Both the position numbers and the translations under genes were made by a program. DNA of 64,000 nucleotides from Chroococcidiopsis sp. CCMEE 29. Lineage in GTDB: Bacteria; Cyanobacteriota; Cyanobacteriia; Cyanobacteriales; Chroococcidiopsidaceae. The notes below the pieces were generated by a model, which saw nothing but the letters and a program-made list of their open reading frames with translations, was not told where the DNA came from and did not search any database. Positions 9,225 to 21,611 of this stretch are shown piece after piece. Each line of letters opens with the position of its first letter. Position 1 is the stretch's first letter. The DNA lies in the NCBI RefSeq assembly GCF_023558375.1, contig NZ_CP083761.1, positions 4,419,001 through 4,483,000 on the forward strand. Reading direction: 5' to 3'.

Positions 9225-10714
9225 CTGGAGCTTAGACTATCCATAGCAAAGAGACCCAGCAGTGCTGGGTAAATGAGTTAACACTAAAAAATGGCGCTTT
9301 GAAGAGTTAAGCAGACTCAGGCAAGGATTGCTTTCGCCTACTCACACTTTTTTTGACGACAGGATAACGAGGTTTACTCAAACGAGGTTGCCCTGTTATC
9401 CAGCCAGGGGACTTTCCGCGTGGTTTTGGTGGCAGTGCTGGAGTACCAATCACCGCTATTACTCCAGCCATAGCTTGGGCAACTCTTCCTGGGGTTAATT
9501 TCGTGCTGCGATTCTGCCAAGGTAGGGGTCGATCGGTAACGATATCACGTGCTAGCCACAATTCCCAAGTGATCAGCGGCATCAAATCACTCCAGCGCTC
9601 ACATTGCTTTGGTGTACTGAGCTTGGGCAGTGTCCAGTGTAGACGTTGTTTCAAAAATCTATACCAATGATCGACAGCAAAGCGGCGCAGATATAACCGC
9701 CAAACTTCAGCCAAGGTTGGCATCTGCTGACCAATCCAAGTCAACCACATTGGTTTTACGGCTTTTCCTGGGCGTTTGCCCAAGCGCTCTACTCTGAGTA
9801 ACGACATGGGATGTCCTGCAGCTTTACGGAAATGCAAATTCTGCCATAGGGAAATTTGTACTCGTCCCAGTTGAGGCTCGTCAACCTCTAAGCTTTCTAC
9901 TGGCACAGACCAAGTAGAAGAGTCATTTAGTTTAAACTTGTCACCATGAAGTCGCGGTCTGCCTTTGCCACAGTAGGGCAGCGGTGCGCCATACAAAGTC
10001 AGGTTTGAGCGCAGACGCATCAACTTATCTGCTGCAATCTGGGCAGTCCTTAAAACAAAAGGAGCGCAACCATATTCACTATCCCATAGAGAAATTGGTC
10101 GTTGTGGTAAATGTTGACATACTTGTGAGAGTTGCCATACTGCCTTGTCAATCGGGGATTCCCAACTGGTGATCCGCTCATGTCGTAATGGCAGTGCCCA
10201 ACTGCCTTGAGCTTCTGGTATCCATGCAATCGTGCTGTAACCTTGCCCCTTTGTAATTGGACGATTTTCACCTCCTCCTACTGTGTAATGTTCGCTCGTT
10301 CGCTCCTGGAGTGTTACTGCTTCTGGTCTAGACCACGCTGTGTGGTCTCCTGCCAGGATAATCTGCTCCACATCAGGCATTTGCTTGATGTATAATTGCA
10401 TCAACTTCTGCCGTTGTGGTCGGCAATCTTGCAATGCCTCGTAGATGCTAGACCACTTGCGGCGAAATACTGGACACAACGAAAAGTCTGCCAAACAATA
10501 AGCGTTGCGCGTCAGCATTACCGCATCTGTCAACTCAAATGTTGCATCATGTGCTTTACCCAATCGTTCGTATGCATCTTGACGAAATGCCTTCAATTGC
10601 GCAAGAACATCCATAGCGGTATGAAAGTTGGTGGAACTTCTTTCATCTTCCGCTACAGGGGAGCCAGTGCATTGCACGGAGTCCCCTTTCCTTCCCTATT
10701 AGTCTAAAGTCCAG
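9225..10714. mobile_element. Insertion sequence in the mreB-mreC spacer (1490 bp)
   Basis: The ends are imperfect inverted repeats: CTGGAGCTTAGACTA at 9225 and, read inward from 10714, CTGGACTTTAGACTA (13 of 15 match). The 7 bases ACTAGAA flank both ends (9218-9224 and 10715-10721) as a target duplication. It holds one transposase gene in the orientation opposite to mreBCD. A small hairpin, CCCAGC/GCTGGG at 9255-9269, lies beyond the transposase stop. The right end stops ten bases before the mreC ATG. The core CTAG of the duplication resembles the target preference of IS701 elements. Confidence 0.85.
9307..10677 (-). CDS. DDE transposase, IS701/IS4-like
   Basis: A 456-residue cut-and-paste transposase. 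The acidic residues fit a DDE core: Asp in LAGDHTAWSRPEA, Asp in SLWDSEYGCAPF, and, in the expected YxxR..E position, RRFAVDHWYRFLKQ, where Asp stands in place of the usual Glu. The frame is open from ATG 10677, but a start at ATG 10614 (MDVLAQLKAFRQ) is also plausible and would give a more family-like N-terminus. The C-terminus is strongly basic. The gene appears intact, so the element may still be active. Confidence 0.85.
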   Translation of the reverse strand: MQCTGSPVAEDERSSTNFHTAMDVLAQLKAFRQDAYERLGKAHDATFELTDAVMLTRNAYCLADFSLCPVFRRKWSSIYEALQDCRPQRQKLMQLYIKQMPDVEQIILAGDHTAWSRPEAVTLQERTSEHYTVGGGENRPITKGQGYSTIAWIPEAQGSWALPLRHERITSWESPIDKAVWQLSQVCQHLPQRPISLWDSEYGCAPFVLRTAQIAADKLMRLRSNLTLYGAPLPYCGKGRPRLHGDKFKLNDSSTWSVPVESLEVDEPQLGRVQISLWQNLHFRKAAGHPMSLLRVERLGKRPGKAVKPMWLTWIGQQMPTLAEVWRLYLRRFAVDHWYRFLKQRLHWTLPKLSTPKQCERWSDLMPLITWELWLARDIVTDRPLPWQNRSTKLTPGRVAQAMAGVIAVIGTPALPPKPRGKSPGWITGQPRLSKPRYPVVKKSVSRRKQSLPESA

Positions 10715-15897: not shown

Positions 15898-16746
15898 TCA
15901 ACCTTTCGTTGCAACTTTTGGAGGTAACACAACTTTCTTAGCTAAACCTAGAGCCTGCAAAATTTGAATTGACCACCAAGTCATATCAATTTCCCACCAA
16001 TGCAATCCCGCTGGTGCTACATTGGGGTGAGCATGATGATTGTTGTGCCAACCTTCTCCATAAGTTAGAATTGCTGCCCACCACAAGTTCCGAGAATTGT
16101 CATCTGAGTTAAAATTACGATAACCGCGCAGGTGAGTTGCAGAATTAATTAGCCATGTGGTATGCCAAAGCACTACTAACCTAACAAATATCCCATAAAT
16201 TACAAAAGACCATCCTCCCAAAACATACAAGAGGATGCCAAGGGGAATCTGAAGCAGCAAGAAATTGTGATTTAGCCAACGATAGAATGGGTCGCGGGCT
16301 AGGTCAGGGGCAAATCTTTTAAAATTTTCGTAGTCAAAAAACTCTGGACGTGGGTAAAAAATCCAAAGCATGTGGCTCCACCAAAAACCACGCTGGGAAG
16401 AATAGGGATCTTTGTTTTCGTCCTCTACATGAGCGTGATGCAAACGGTGTCCGGCTACCCAAAAGATCGGCCCTCCTTGGATTGCCAGCGCTCCCAAAGT
16501 AGCGATCGCATATTCCAGCCACTTTGGCACCTGGAAACTCCGGTGAGTCAAAAGTCGGTGATACCCTAAACAAATACCAATACTGCCAATTAACCAATGG
16601 AGGAATATCATTACTCCCAAAGCAGACCAAGAAAAAAACCAGGGAGCTAGCAACGCCAATGCATGAATCGTACCGAAAAATGCCACGGTAATCCAGCTTA
16701 GAGTAAGCGGCTGCTTATCCTCGGCAGCAGCTAAATCTACGGTCAT
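15898..16746 (-). CDS. desC: Acyl-lipid delta-9 fatty acid desaturase
   Basis: A membrane di-iron desaturase that puts the first double bond into acyl chains of membrane lipids, central to cold adaptation. The three histidine boxes are intact: HRLLTH (63-68), HRLHHAH (100-106) and HNNHHAH (234-240), with GGPIFWVAGHRLHH and WLINSATHLRGYR typical of the cyanobacterial DesC group. There are four predicted spans; length is 282 aa. It is transcribed away from a TetR-type gene, and two palindromes in the 170-base spacer are probable operators. Confidence 0.93.
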   Translation of the reverse strand: MTVDLAAAEDKQPLTLSWITVAFFGTIHALALLAPWFFSWSALGVMIFLHWLIGSIGICLGYHRLLTHRSFQVPKWLEYAIATLGALAIQGGPIFWVAGHRLHHAHVEDENKDPYSSQRGFWWSHMLWIFYPRPEFFDYENFKRFAPDLARDPFYRWLNHNFLLLQIPLGILLYVLGGWSFVIYGIFVRLVVLWHTTWLINSATHLRGYRNFNSDDNSRNLWWAAILTYGEGWHNNHHAHPNVAPAGLHWWEIDMTWWSIQILQALGLAKKVVLPPKVATKG

Positions 16747-16840: not shown

Positions 16841-16859
16841 ATGCAAGTGCTACTTACAT
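16841..16859. promoter_or_regulatory. Candidate TetR operator, site 1 (desC side)
   Basis: ATGCAAG-TGCTA-CTTACAT is a 7-5-7 inverted repeat with one mismatch. It has the same half-site and the same spacer length as site 2, 48 bases away. Binding by the adjacent TetR-type protein is inferred from position and symmetry. Confidence 0.6.
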
Positions 16860-16888
16860 GCCCCTAGCTTAGCAAGGATAAAATTTAA

Positions 16889-16907
16889 ATGCAAGCGTTA
16901 CTTGCAT
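16889..16907. promoter_or_regulatory. Candidate TetR operator, site 2 (regulator side)
   Basis: ATGCAAG-CGTTA-CTTGCAT is a perfect 7-5-7 inverted repeat ending nine bases before the regulator start codon. It is well placed for autoregulation, since bound protein would cover the regulator's own ribosome-binding and promoter-proximal region. Confidence 0.65.
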
Positions 16908-16916
16908 TTTTAGCTT

Positions 16917-18128
16917 ATGTCTTCTCAACTAGTTTCAACTCGACAGCGATTGATTAATGCAGCGATTGAGTTATTCGCCGTCCAGGGAGTCACCGAAACA
17001 ACAACGCGACAGATTGCAGAATTAGCAAAAGTTAATGAAGTGACGCTGTTTCGGAATTTTGGCAATAAGCACGGATTGCTGTTAGCCGTGATTTCCGAAT
17101 CGCCAGTGTTTAAAGATTTGGGGGAATCCTTAAGGCAGCAGGCAAATCAAACCAGCAGTTTCTACGAGGCTCTAAAAGGCTATGCCAGTGCTCGCTTACA
17201 GGCGCTAGAACAAGTTCCAGATTTAGTGCTATCTGTGGTGGGTGAGGCAAGGCACTATCCAGTCGAAAATCGTCAGGCATTGGGAAAATACTTAACCCAA
17301 GCCAACTACTATGTAGCCGAATATTTAGCAACGGTGATGGAGCGGGAGCAGTTAAACAGCGACATCTCGGCTGAAAAGCTAGCAAGTTTGCTCAATAGTT
17401 TATTGTTAGGATACGCCGTAATTGAGTTTACCAGCGAGTTTCACGAACTTTGGCATGACAGAGATGAATTTTTGGAGAATTTGATAGAGTTATTTTTAAA
17501 CAACTTCACACACTCTACAAGTCTCATAAAAACAGAGTCGATTTCAACCCACCAGGTGGCCGACTTACCTGCAAATTTAGTCCACTTAATTCTGCAACAA
17601 GCCAAAAAATCTGGGCTCCAAGATTATGCCTTAATGTACGTTCTATTTGGAGCAGGCTTGTCTCCAGCAGAAATTGTTAATTTAGAGCGATCGCACCAAA
17701 TAAGCGATGCCAATCAGCACTTATTGCAAATCACTCAAGGTTCTACTCGACAAGTTCCAGTTAATCAGTGGATTATGGGTAAGCGCTATGGTTCCTATAG
17801 TCGTAACCCCCTAACCCAATGGCTAAACAGCCGTAAAGACGAGCGATCGGCAATGTTTCTTAACGATGATGGAATGCCAATTTCAGAGGCAGAAATACAG
17901 GAGCGCTGGCAGGAATTAACTGAGGGATTCTCAACCCCTGAAGAGCAACAGCCAGTAATTGAGCAAGCGCAACAAACTTGGTGTATAGAAATGTTGATGA
18001 AGGGAATCCAACTGGAAGATTTGAGTATTCTAACAGGCTGGGATTTCACTAAATTACAACCTTATGCTCGGAGAACCAGAGAAAAATTAGCACTAGAGCA
18101 AGCACTTCGCCTCGATCAAAAATCTTAG
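16917..18128 (+). CDS. TetR-type regulator fused to a degenerate tyrosine-recombinase domain
   Basis: Residues 1-60 are a TetR HTH (TRQRLINAAIELFAVQGV...TTTRQIAELAKVNEVTLFRNFGNKHGLL), and about 65-195 are the helical ligand/dimer domain. Residues about 215-395 look like a phage-integrase catalytic domain: LMYVLFGAGLSPAEIVNL for the usual GLR.sE..L, RQVPVN for the R.VPL strand, FLNDDGMPIS, WCIEMLMKGIQLEDLSILTGW for the helix around HxxR and the G-H/W, and LQPYARRTREK for the tyrosine box. The first catalytic Arg is Ser249, HxxR is missing, and Trp375 and Tyr383 remain, so cleavage is unlikely. The length of 403 aa is twice a normal TetR. It diverges from desC, its likely target. The recombinase assignment is by motif reading only. 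Confidence 0.75.
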   Translation: MSSQLVSTRQRLINAAIELFAVQGVTETTTRQIAELAKVNEVTLFRNFGNKHGLLLAVISESPVFKDLGESLRQQANQTSSFYEALKGYASARLQALEQVPDLVLSVVGEARHYPVENRQALGKYLTQANYYVAEYLATVMEREQLNSDISAEKLASLLNSLLLGYAVIEFTSEFHELWHDRDEFLENLIELFLNNFTHSTSLIKTESISTHQVADLPANLVHLILQQAKKSGLQDYALMYVLFGAGLSPAEIVNLERSHQISDANQHLLQITQGSTRQVPVNQWIMGKRYGSYSRNPLTQWLNSRKDERSAMFLNDDGMPISEAEIQERWQELTEGFSTPEEQQPVIEQAQQTWCIEMLMKGIQLEDLSILTGWDFTKLQPYARRTREKLALEQALRLDQKS

Positions 18129-19479: not shown

Positions 19480-20392
19480 GAGGATGTTTGAAAAGTTTTG
19501 AAGGGTTAAATTTTATGCCAGTCGCCTCACCATGATCCGGATCATGGCAAGGTAGATAAATGTCTCCGATGTTTGGGGCAATAACTCATAGTCTCTGACC
19601 AATCGGCGACAGCCCATTAGCCAGCCAAAAGTTCGCTCCACTACCCACCGCTTTTTCAACAACACGAACCCTTTGGTTTGTTCTGGTCGCAGCACTACCT
19701 GCACAATCCAACGACAAACGTTCATCACCCATTGCATGAATGGCTCACCGTCAAAGCCTGCATCAACCCAAATTGTATGCAGACGAGACACTGCTGGAGC
19801 CATCTTTTTAACTCGCTTGAGTACTTGTTTGCCGCCCTCACGCTCTCCAACGTTCGCCGCACTCACTAACACTCGCAGCACTAAGCCCAACGTATCCACT
19901 GTCAAAAACCGTTTGCGTCCCTTAGTTAATTTACCTGCATCAAAGCCGACTGCCTTGCTGACCATTGCCGCGCTTTTGACACTTTGACTGTCAATGATTG
20001 CTTCGGATGGGCTTGGTTGTCGCTCCTGAGCCACTCTCATCCACTGCCGCAGACGCTCATGTATCCTGAGCCAAGTTCCATCAAGACGCCAGTTGCGAAA
20101 GTATGTGTACACTGTTTGCCATGCTGGGAAGTCACTCGGTAAAGATCGCCAGCGCACCCCCTCCACTAGAACATAAAATATAGCGTTGAGAACTGCCCAC
20201 ATCTTGGCTTCACGGGGACGACCACCAGGTTTTGGTTCTGGAATCAGGTCACTGAGCAATTCATACTGGGCAAGAGTCAGATTACTAGGGTAAGCTTTAC
20301 TCATTGTACTCACTCGGTGCTGTGTTCTTTACTATTCGCAGCTTACACTGGGTGAGCTTTTTTACTACCTAACCGACTTTTAAAACATCCTC
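19480..20392. mobile_element. IS5-like insertion sequence (913 bp)
   Basis: Inverted ends GAGGATGTTTGAAAAGT and, inward from the other side, GAGGATGTTTTAAAAGT (16 of 17). A TTA target duplication (19477-19479 and 20393-20395) fits the TNA preference of the IS1031 group. It carries one transposase gene, in the same direction as the gene it breaks. Excision restores the HNH frame, so the insertion is recent or harmless to the host. Confidence 0.92.
19513..20313 (-). CDS. IS5-family transposase (IS1031-like)
   Basis: A complete 266-residue DDE transposase. It begins with an IS5-type N-terminus (YPSNLTLAQYELLSDLIPEPKPGGRPRE, then NAIFYVLVEGVRWRSLPSDFPAWQTVY). The catalytic acids lie in IIDSQSVKSA, WVDAGFDGE and VVERTFGWLMGCRRL, the last followed by the Y/R...R signature RDYELLPQTSE. 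Intact frame and intact ends suggest an active element. A second ATG three codons in (MSKAYPS) is an equally good start. Confidence 0.92.
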   Translation of the reverse strand: MSTMSKAYPSNLTLAQYELLSDLIPEPKPGGRPREAKMWAVLNAIFYVLVEGVRWRSLPSDFPAWQTVYTYFRNWRLDGTWLRIHERLRQWMRVAQERQPSPSEAIIDSQSVKSAAMVSKAVGFDAGKLTKGRKRFLTVDTLGLVLRVLVSAANVGEREGGKQVLKRVKKMAPAVSRLHTIWVDAGFDGEPFMQWVMNVCRWIVQVVLRPEQTKGFVLLKKRWVVERTFGWLMGCRRLVRDYELLPQTSETFIYLAMIRIMVRRLA

Positions 20393-21059
20393 TTAGCTTG
20401 ATTCATCGTCTTCTGAATCTGCTTATTGCGATTAAAGATTTGATTAACAATATCGTCTATCTGGGGCTTAATTACCTCACCGACATCCTTACACTCCTCC
20501 TTACGATTCTTTTTAGTCAGGCGTTCCTCGAAGGCTAGAGATAATTTATAAATGCCTGACAGAGAGAAATACAATCCACCTTGGTCAACAAAATCTTCAT
20601 AGTCTTGACCTATGATTAGAGGATATTGAGTTCGTTGAGTGTGGTCAGCCATCTTTCTTAGATAATCAGACTTAGTGCCAAAGATAGCTAAAACATCAGT
20701 CCTTGAAATAAAGAATTGATTGTTACGTTTGACGAGAGATGAGCAGTTATCTAGAATTTTCTTTCTAATAAAGCTCCTGCGAACTTCTCTCTTGGTGTGC
20801 GTAAACCACTCTTTAATTAAATCCCAGAAATTCTGCTTCCTAGTCGCCTCCAAGTAGCGAGCTATTGTATACGCACCTGATAGGGTATACTCTCGCAGCC
20901 CAGTAGCCTGAATAACAACTTTGTAGTCTTTTGCCTCAATCAACTCCCACTCATCATCTGGAATTGAATCAAAGAATTTTTCAACGTATATCAGTTCTTG
21001 AGCACTGATTTTTAAAGTCTTAATTAGCTCTTGGCAGGTGATGTAAGTTGCCACCATCG

Positions 21060-21611
21060 CTAGAACCTCTCCGTGAGACTGTTGTAAAACACGGTCAGGC
21101 GGTCAAAGATGCGGGCATCACCTGTATTAGGGTTATCTGGGTGATAGACCTTACTTAGTTCTCGATAAGCGGATTTGATATCGTCAGTCTTAGCTGTCTT
21201 CGGATCTAGCCCAAAAGCTTTCCAGGGCAAATCGTATTTAAAAATGTCAATTCCTTGAATACAGCCATATCCCTCCTTGGTTTCTTCCCCAGGCAGAATA
21301 TCGATTAACTTGCGGTAAAGTTTTTCCCAGCTATCTTTCTTGCTTAGGTCAAGCTTGTCCATACTAGATGTAGCCATTTGGAAAGCCCCTAACCGCTTCA
21401 GGGCAGTAGTATCTTTGACTTGGAAGTGCTGGTATATTGCCTGCTTAAGTTGAGTCAATGAAAGACTCTTAGTTGTACTCTTGCTTTTAGTTGGCTCTTT
21501 TTGAAGTACAAATACAGCAAAGTCTCTCAGAACTGACTCGCTATACCCGTATTCTGTAACTAGTTGGTGGATTTCAGATTCCACTCTTTTGGTCAATTTT
21601 TTTGTTGGCAT
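21060..21611 (-). CDS. J-domain protein, partner of the HNH gene
   Basis: 183 residues. The C-terminal 60 form a J domain: LPWKAFGLDPKTAKTDDIKSAYRELSKVYHPDNPNTGDARIFDRLTVFYNSL, with the HPD tripeptide that activates DnaK chaperones. The N-terminal 120 residues are charged and helical (TKRVESEIHQLVTEYGYSESVLRDFAVFVLQKE...) with no recognised domain. The J domain at the C-terminal end is unusual for general DnaJ proteins and typical of adaptor proteins. Two bases separate its stop from the HNH start, so the two were made together. Confidence 0.75.
   Translation of the reverse strand: MPTKKLTKRVESEIHQLVTEYGYSESVLRDFAVFVLQKEPTKSKSTTKSLSLTQLKQAIYQHFQVKDTTALKRLGAFQMATSSMDKLDLSKKDSWEKLYRKLIDILPGEETKEGYGCIQGIDIFKYDLPWKAFGLDPKTAKTDDIKSAYRELSKVYHPDNPNTGDARIFDRLTVFYNSLTERF

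Follow-up and report, generated by a model that had tools for sequence, protein, structure and literature searches.

What does the catalytic fold of a tyrosine recombinase do at the end of a TetR-type regulator that is encoded next to a lipid desaturase gene? This question is raised by a gene in the 64,000-bp stretch of Chroococcidiopsis sp. CCMEE 29 DNA analyzed here (the window), which the initial annotation had read as a TetR regulator fused to a catalytically dead recombinase fold, the latter being re-used as a second DNA-binding or looping module in desaturase control. The features of the locus are compiled in Table 1.

Domains and fold of the fusion protein

Pfam matched both domains within one 403-aa open reading frame, confirming the fusion. 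TetR_N was matched at residues 12 to 58 (E 2.4e-12; 46.9 bits against a cut-off of 24), the TetR part was all-helical by prediction, and TetR chains were present among the structure matches. The TetR part also gave weak NCBIfam matches, far under the curated cut-offs, to TetR-family lipid regulators. No Pfam match to a core-binding domain was found in the fusion, where the TetR part and the linker occupy its place.

In the C-terminal part, Phage_integrase was matched at residues 220 to 376 with an E value of 4e-8 (33.7 bits, above the cut-off of 27.1), and 23 of 23 diverse C-terminal domains of the family matched it individually (best E 1.5e-11). With a profile of the domain, matches were obtained to the XerC/XerA-like chain 4a8e (1.7e-9) and to Tn1549 Int (1e-4). 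Structure prediction had been set beforehand as the test that could overturn the recombinase reading. AlphaFold, given the C-terminal domain alone and no templates, returned a model with a pLDDT of 91.9 and a pTM of 0.87, whose best structural match was XerA (5hxy; Foldseek E 2.7e-8; VIA Z 20.6, 175 of 199 residues, rmsd 3.6), and the structural matches listed were tyrosine recombinases, recombinase-like repressors, and type IB topoisomerases. Since Pfam, profile, AlphaFold, and structural matches agree, the recombinase fold proposed from sequence can be taken as correct. The model of the full-length protein had a pTM of 0.44, and the arrangement of the domains was therefore left unused. Sequence alignment also revealed nine residues, GKRYGSYSR, without counterpart in the aligned recombinases; within this insertion, Y291 and G292 were invariant across 122 family members.

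Table 1. Features of the TetR fusion/desaturase locus, in window coordinates
Feature	Position	Strand	Remarks
Acyl-lipid delta-9 desaturase, desC1/2-like	15898..16746	-	Pfam FA_desaturase 3e-19
Distal predicted TetR operator, ATGCAAGTGCTACTTACAT	16841..16859	.	Overlaps predicted +1 region of desaturase
Extended -10 of desaturase promoter (TGnTAnnnT), TGCTAAGCT	16866..16874	-	Conserved between operators
Proximal predicted TetR operator, ATGCAAGCGTTACTTGCAT	16889..16907	.	Overlaps predicted -35 of desaturase
Candidate -35, TTGCAT, inside proximal operator	16889..16894	-	17-bp spacer to -10; sequence reading
TetR/dead tyrosine-recombinase fusion gene	16917..18128	+	Single frame, 403 aa
TetR part: HTH (residues 12-58), helical effector/dimer domain (residues about 60-198)	16917..17510	+	
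Linker, low pLDDT	17511..17558	+	Length 8-80 aa across family
Degenerate tyrosine-recombinase catalytic-domain fold (residues 215-403)	17559..18125	+	Pfam match, residues 220-376
Family-specific insertion GKRYGSYSR (residues 288-296)	17778..17804	+	Sequence alignment

Active site and conservation of the C-terminal domain

When aligned with XerA and the intact integrases of the same genome, the GAGLR motif of recombinases corresponded to GAGLS249 in the fusion, and HQLRHSF corresponded to E349-Q-A-Q352-Q-T-W355. The loss of the first Arg and of HxxR, as first noticed in the window protein, extends through the family of 122 members. Position 249 (ArgI, Box I) was Ser in 110 members and Arg in 2, position 349 (the His of HxxR) was Glu in 50 and Ala in 49, with no His among its eight commonest states, and position 352 (the Arg of HxxR, Box II) was Gln in 111 and Arg in 9; HxxR is replaced mostly by [EA]xxQ. 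The initial annotation had also listed Trp375 and Tyr383 as remaining. This stood for Tyr383 (Tyr in 120, Phe in 2) and failed for Trp375 as a family feature, position 375 being Cys in 59 members and Trp in 54. Tyr383 stands 8, not 9, residues past the H/W position, a correction to the earlier reading. The β-hairpin of the catalytic Lys aligned with gaps, and its residues varied (T, Q, I, K).

An active site-specific recombinase fused to TetR, which might for example invert or excise DNA at the locus, would fit the near-universal Tyr383 and the few members with a single catalytic residue (R249 in two, R352 in nine). However, the complete Arg-His-Arg-Tyr set was found in none of the family members examined, whereas the intact integrases of the same genome retain H-x-x-R and the downstream His. 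Furthermore, gene order was identical in all genomes examined, with no inversion of the locus seen. We consider activity of this kind extremely improbable. Divergent members of one family (f28) retain R352 followed by His (RHTW), a pattern that would fit the decay of an active recombinase in steps.

The fusion is widespread. Eighty full-length orthologs, retrieved by name and with 63 to 78% identity, came from many cyanobacterial genera, and a whole-protein profile (cut-off E <= 1e-25) found matches in 201 of 388 Cyanobacteriia genomes, most of them full length and a few shortened. Strong matches to the C-terminal domain in the phylum occurred exclusively as part of the TetR fusion; the other matches in the phylum were weak and lay mostly in frames of integrase length (~300 aa). 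Neither IMG/VR, with the patterns used, nor GenBank phages yielded a phage or viral origin for the domain, and we found no earlier description of a TetR/integrase fusion in the open-access literature.

The median dN/dS of the C-terminal domain was 0.13 (1089 pairs), and the domain is thus under purifying selection; the TetR parts had lower values (HTH, 0.07; TetR core, 0.02). Conservation reached at least 97% at 38 of the 189 domain positions across the 122 members, and R278, R306, and K307 were invariant or nearly so. The C-terminal part could in principle be the leftover of an accidental fusion, merely folded and undergoing ordinary decay, as its dN/dS, the highest of the three domains, its missing catalytic residues, and its loss in at least two lineages might indicate. 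The strength of the purifying selection, the number of nearly fixed positions, and the retention of the fusion across many families of the class Cyanobacteriia argue against this, and we hold such decay to be improbable. Retention across much of the cyanobacteria rather suggests that the former enzyme fold has taken on a new function in regulation.

The divergent desaturase gene and its predicted operator pair

The desaturase ORF carries four His motifs (HRLLTHRSF, GHRLHH, HTTWLINSATH, and GEGWHNNHHA), and the same four His-containing motifs have been given for DesC1/DesC2 (PMC4390868). In each of the 110 fused loci that were examined first, a desaturase 68 to 83% identical to that of the window stood head to head with the fusion gene, some of the matches being partial, at contig ends. 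More distant fused loci, fetched with their upstream sequence, also had the desaturase in this orientation. The proposed link to a lipid desaturase is thereby upheld.

Two 19-bp palindromes, ATGCAAGTNNNACTTGCAT, were present in the intergenic region of 110 of 110 loci. A palindromic operator at the regulator's own or divergent promoter, as in TetR repressors, is thus present by sequence. The start-to-start distance between the two sites was 46 to 48 bp in 114 of 124 loci, and the distance from operator to ATG varied from about 15 to >500 bp. None of 100 shuffles of the window reached its operator count. Perfect 17-bp sites were found in 23 of 23 genomes with the gene compared to 2 of 23 that lack it; the genome from which the window comes has no perfect sites other than the two described here. 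These predicted operators, absent from the initial annotation, provide the stronger functional evidence.

Outside the operators, conservation across 38 non-redundant loci of 47-bp spacing was clearest for TGnTAnnnT, an extended -10 on the desaturase strand; no conserved element besides the operators and this promoter -10 was seen. The predicted desaturase start lies at the edge of the distal operator. A generic promoter scan did not call the desaturase -10 or promoter. As one operator lies on the predicted -35 and the other at +1, both would be expected to block the desaturase promoter.

Some loci departed from this layout. One fused ortholog (L123) had operators 85 bp apart. Two divergent fused orthologs beside a desaturase (L164 and L166, family f50) gave no match to the operator under the threshold applied, and the operator specificity of these regulators may have changed. 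A desaturase/TetR-fusion pair with the same two operators was also found on plasmid pP742403 of Gloeothece citriformis PCC 7424, where it is annotated just as a TetR/AcrR family regulator and a fatty acid desaturase. This plasmid module (L206; NC_011730.1 14897-24135) adjoins a gene for an orange-carotenoid-protein N-terminal domain and a light-harvesting-like gene.

Some short orthologs lack the C-terminal domain. Two of them (L113 and L171, family f18) kept both operators, 47 bp apart, and a third (L178, family f28), on a long branch in the tree, had one recognized operator. All three were nested among fused orthologs, and the domain was therefore most simply lost in the f18 and f28 lineages. 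Because lineages that lost the domain kept operators, the domain is dispensable for operator use, and the TetR part is most likely the operator reader. We also considered the operator spacing as a sign of looping by the domain and rejected it, since L113 and L171 keep 47 bp and promoter geometry fits; the layout of the desaturase promoter most likely dictates this distance. With the 47-bp spacing persisting where the domain is missing, the operator spacing lends no support to the proposed second DNA-binding or looping module, and no separate binding site for the domain was found. In addition, short TetR orthologs whose C-terminal half is rewritten (family f27; L173-L176, L114, and L115) were found head to head with the desaturase, mostly with one clear operator instead of two.

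Possible roles of the C-terminal domain

Building on the fold, the loss of the catalytic set, the conservation, the synteny, and the operators, all established by computation, we propose that the fusion is probably a local, autoregulating TetR repressor of the desC-type desaturase, in which the recombinase fold would serve as an accessory. TetR dimers would occupy the two palindromic operators straddling the desaturase promoter and thereby block RNA polymerase, until they are released by a signal that is probably lipid or acyl in nature. The Xer-like catalytic fold would have been acquired early in cyanobacterial evolution; having lost both its catalytic residues and its core-binding domain, it would now be attached through a flexible linker. 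In this position, it could provide additional contacts, either with DNA or between the bound dimers, resulting in firmer occupancy of the operator pair. We put forward this accessory DNA-contacting or bridging role tentatively, with somewhat less than even confidence. A more specific version, in which the former synapsis surface acts as a bridge, so that the C-terminal folds on the two operators touch each other or the intervening promoter DNA and so keep the desaturase promoter in a closed nucleoprotein complex, seems to us doubtful, and we know of no bacterial precedent for a two-site repressor built by recombinase-surface bridging.

The net charge of the C-terminal domain was -5 in the window protein, with a family mean of +2.8, compared to +11 for the XerA stretch. 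Acidity was also seen in three of the genome's intact integrases, and net charge was therefore rejected as an uninformative test for DNA binding.

The domain might instead receive a protein partner or a signal, docking a partner or sensing a small molecule and so tuning TetR. The XerD C-terminal domain docks FtsK, and XerD-FtsK gamma was among the structural matches. The most invariant stretch of the domain is the GKRYGSYSR insertion, which is what a newly evolved functional surface should look like, and the low net charge, the lack of a DNA element of the domain's own, and its loss without loss of operators point in the same direction. However, no co-occurring partner gene was found besides the desaturase (three window neighbors checked), and the near-invariant R278, R306, and K307 would fit DNA contact too; on balance, a partner or signal domain, the main rival to the accessory role, appears rather unlikely.

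A recombinase-like fold has been re-used for DNA binding without catalysis in the yeast Ndc10, a eukaryotic kinetochore protein. The closest bacterial precedents that we found for dead recombinase-fold repressors are the phage repressors MrpR and SroF. MrpR (YopR), the master repressor of the Bacillus prophage SPbeta, is a DNA-binding repressor with a tyrosine-recombinase fold, for which recombination was undetected and in which ArgI and HxxR are replaced and the Tyr is kept (PMC10516654). MrpR (PDB 8a0a) and SroF chains were among the structural matches of our domain model, and MrpR and the fusion share a recombinase fold without ArgI and HxxR but with the Tyr retained. Unlike the fusion, which has TetR in front, MrpR retains its N-terminal core-binding domain and reads the DNA itself. 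SroF of phage phi3T (PDB 9rd5 and 9rgl; Z about 13) has a recombinase-like fold and is, by the titles of these entries, a DNA-bound repressor; it is a phage protein, whereas the fusion described here is chromosomal, and to our knowledge no TetR part is known for it. The catalytic domains of XerA, XerH, and XerD (5hxy, 5jjv, and 1a0p) resemble the fusion in fold (for XerA, over about 175 of 199 residues) and motif order, but Xer proteins have the active site and core-binding domain that the fusion lacks. The predicted role of the fusion has parallels in FabR, PsrA, and FadR of Bacillus, TetR-family regulators of lipid genes, none of which is known to us to carry a recombinase fold.

The fusion thus presents a chromosomal case of a recombinase fold turned into part of a housekeeping transcription factor, and one that much of a bacterial class has retained. 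It also names a likely dedicated regulator, together with its predicted operators, for the first membrane-lipid desaturation step in many cyanobacteria, which makes desC control directly testable, and the lineages without the domain offer a natural control for its contribution.

Several other features were noted around the locus. Downstream of it, the window encodes an IS4/5-type transposase (19513-20313, minus strand; DUF4096 and DDE), followed on the same strand by adjacent ORFs (20380-21611) of 183 aa, with a C-terminal DnaJ domain, and 225 aa, without a Pfam match. A 456-aa ORF at 9307-10677 (minus strand) looked transposase-like by eye and had no Pfam match at 0.001. Finally, the smaller contig (C2) of genome G000 contained 11 of the 22 Phage_integrase matches of that genome.
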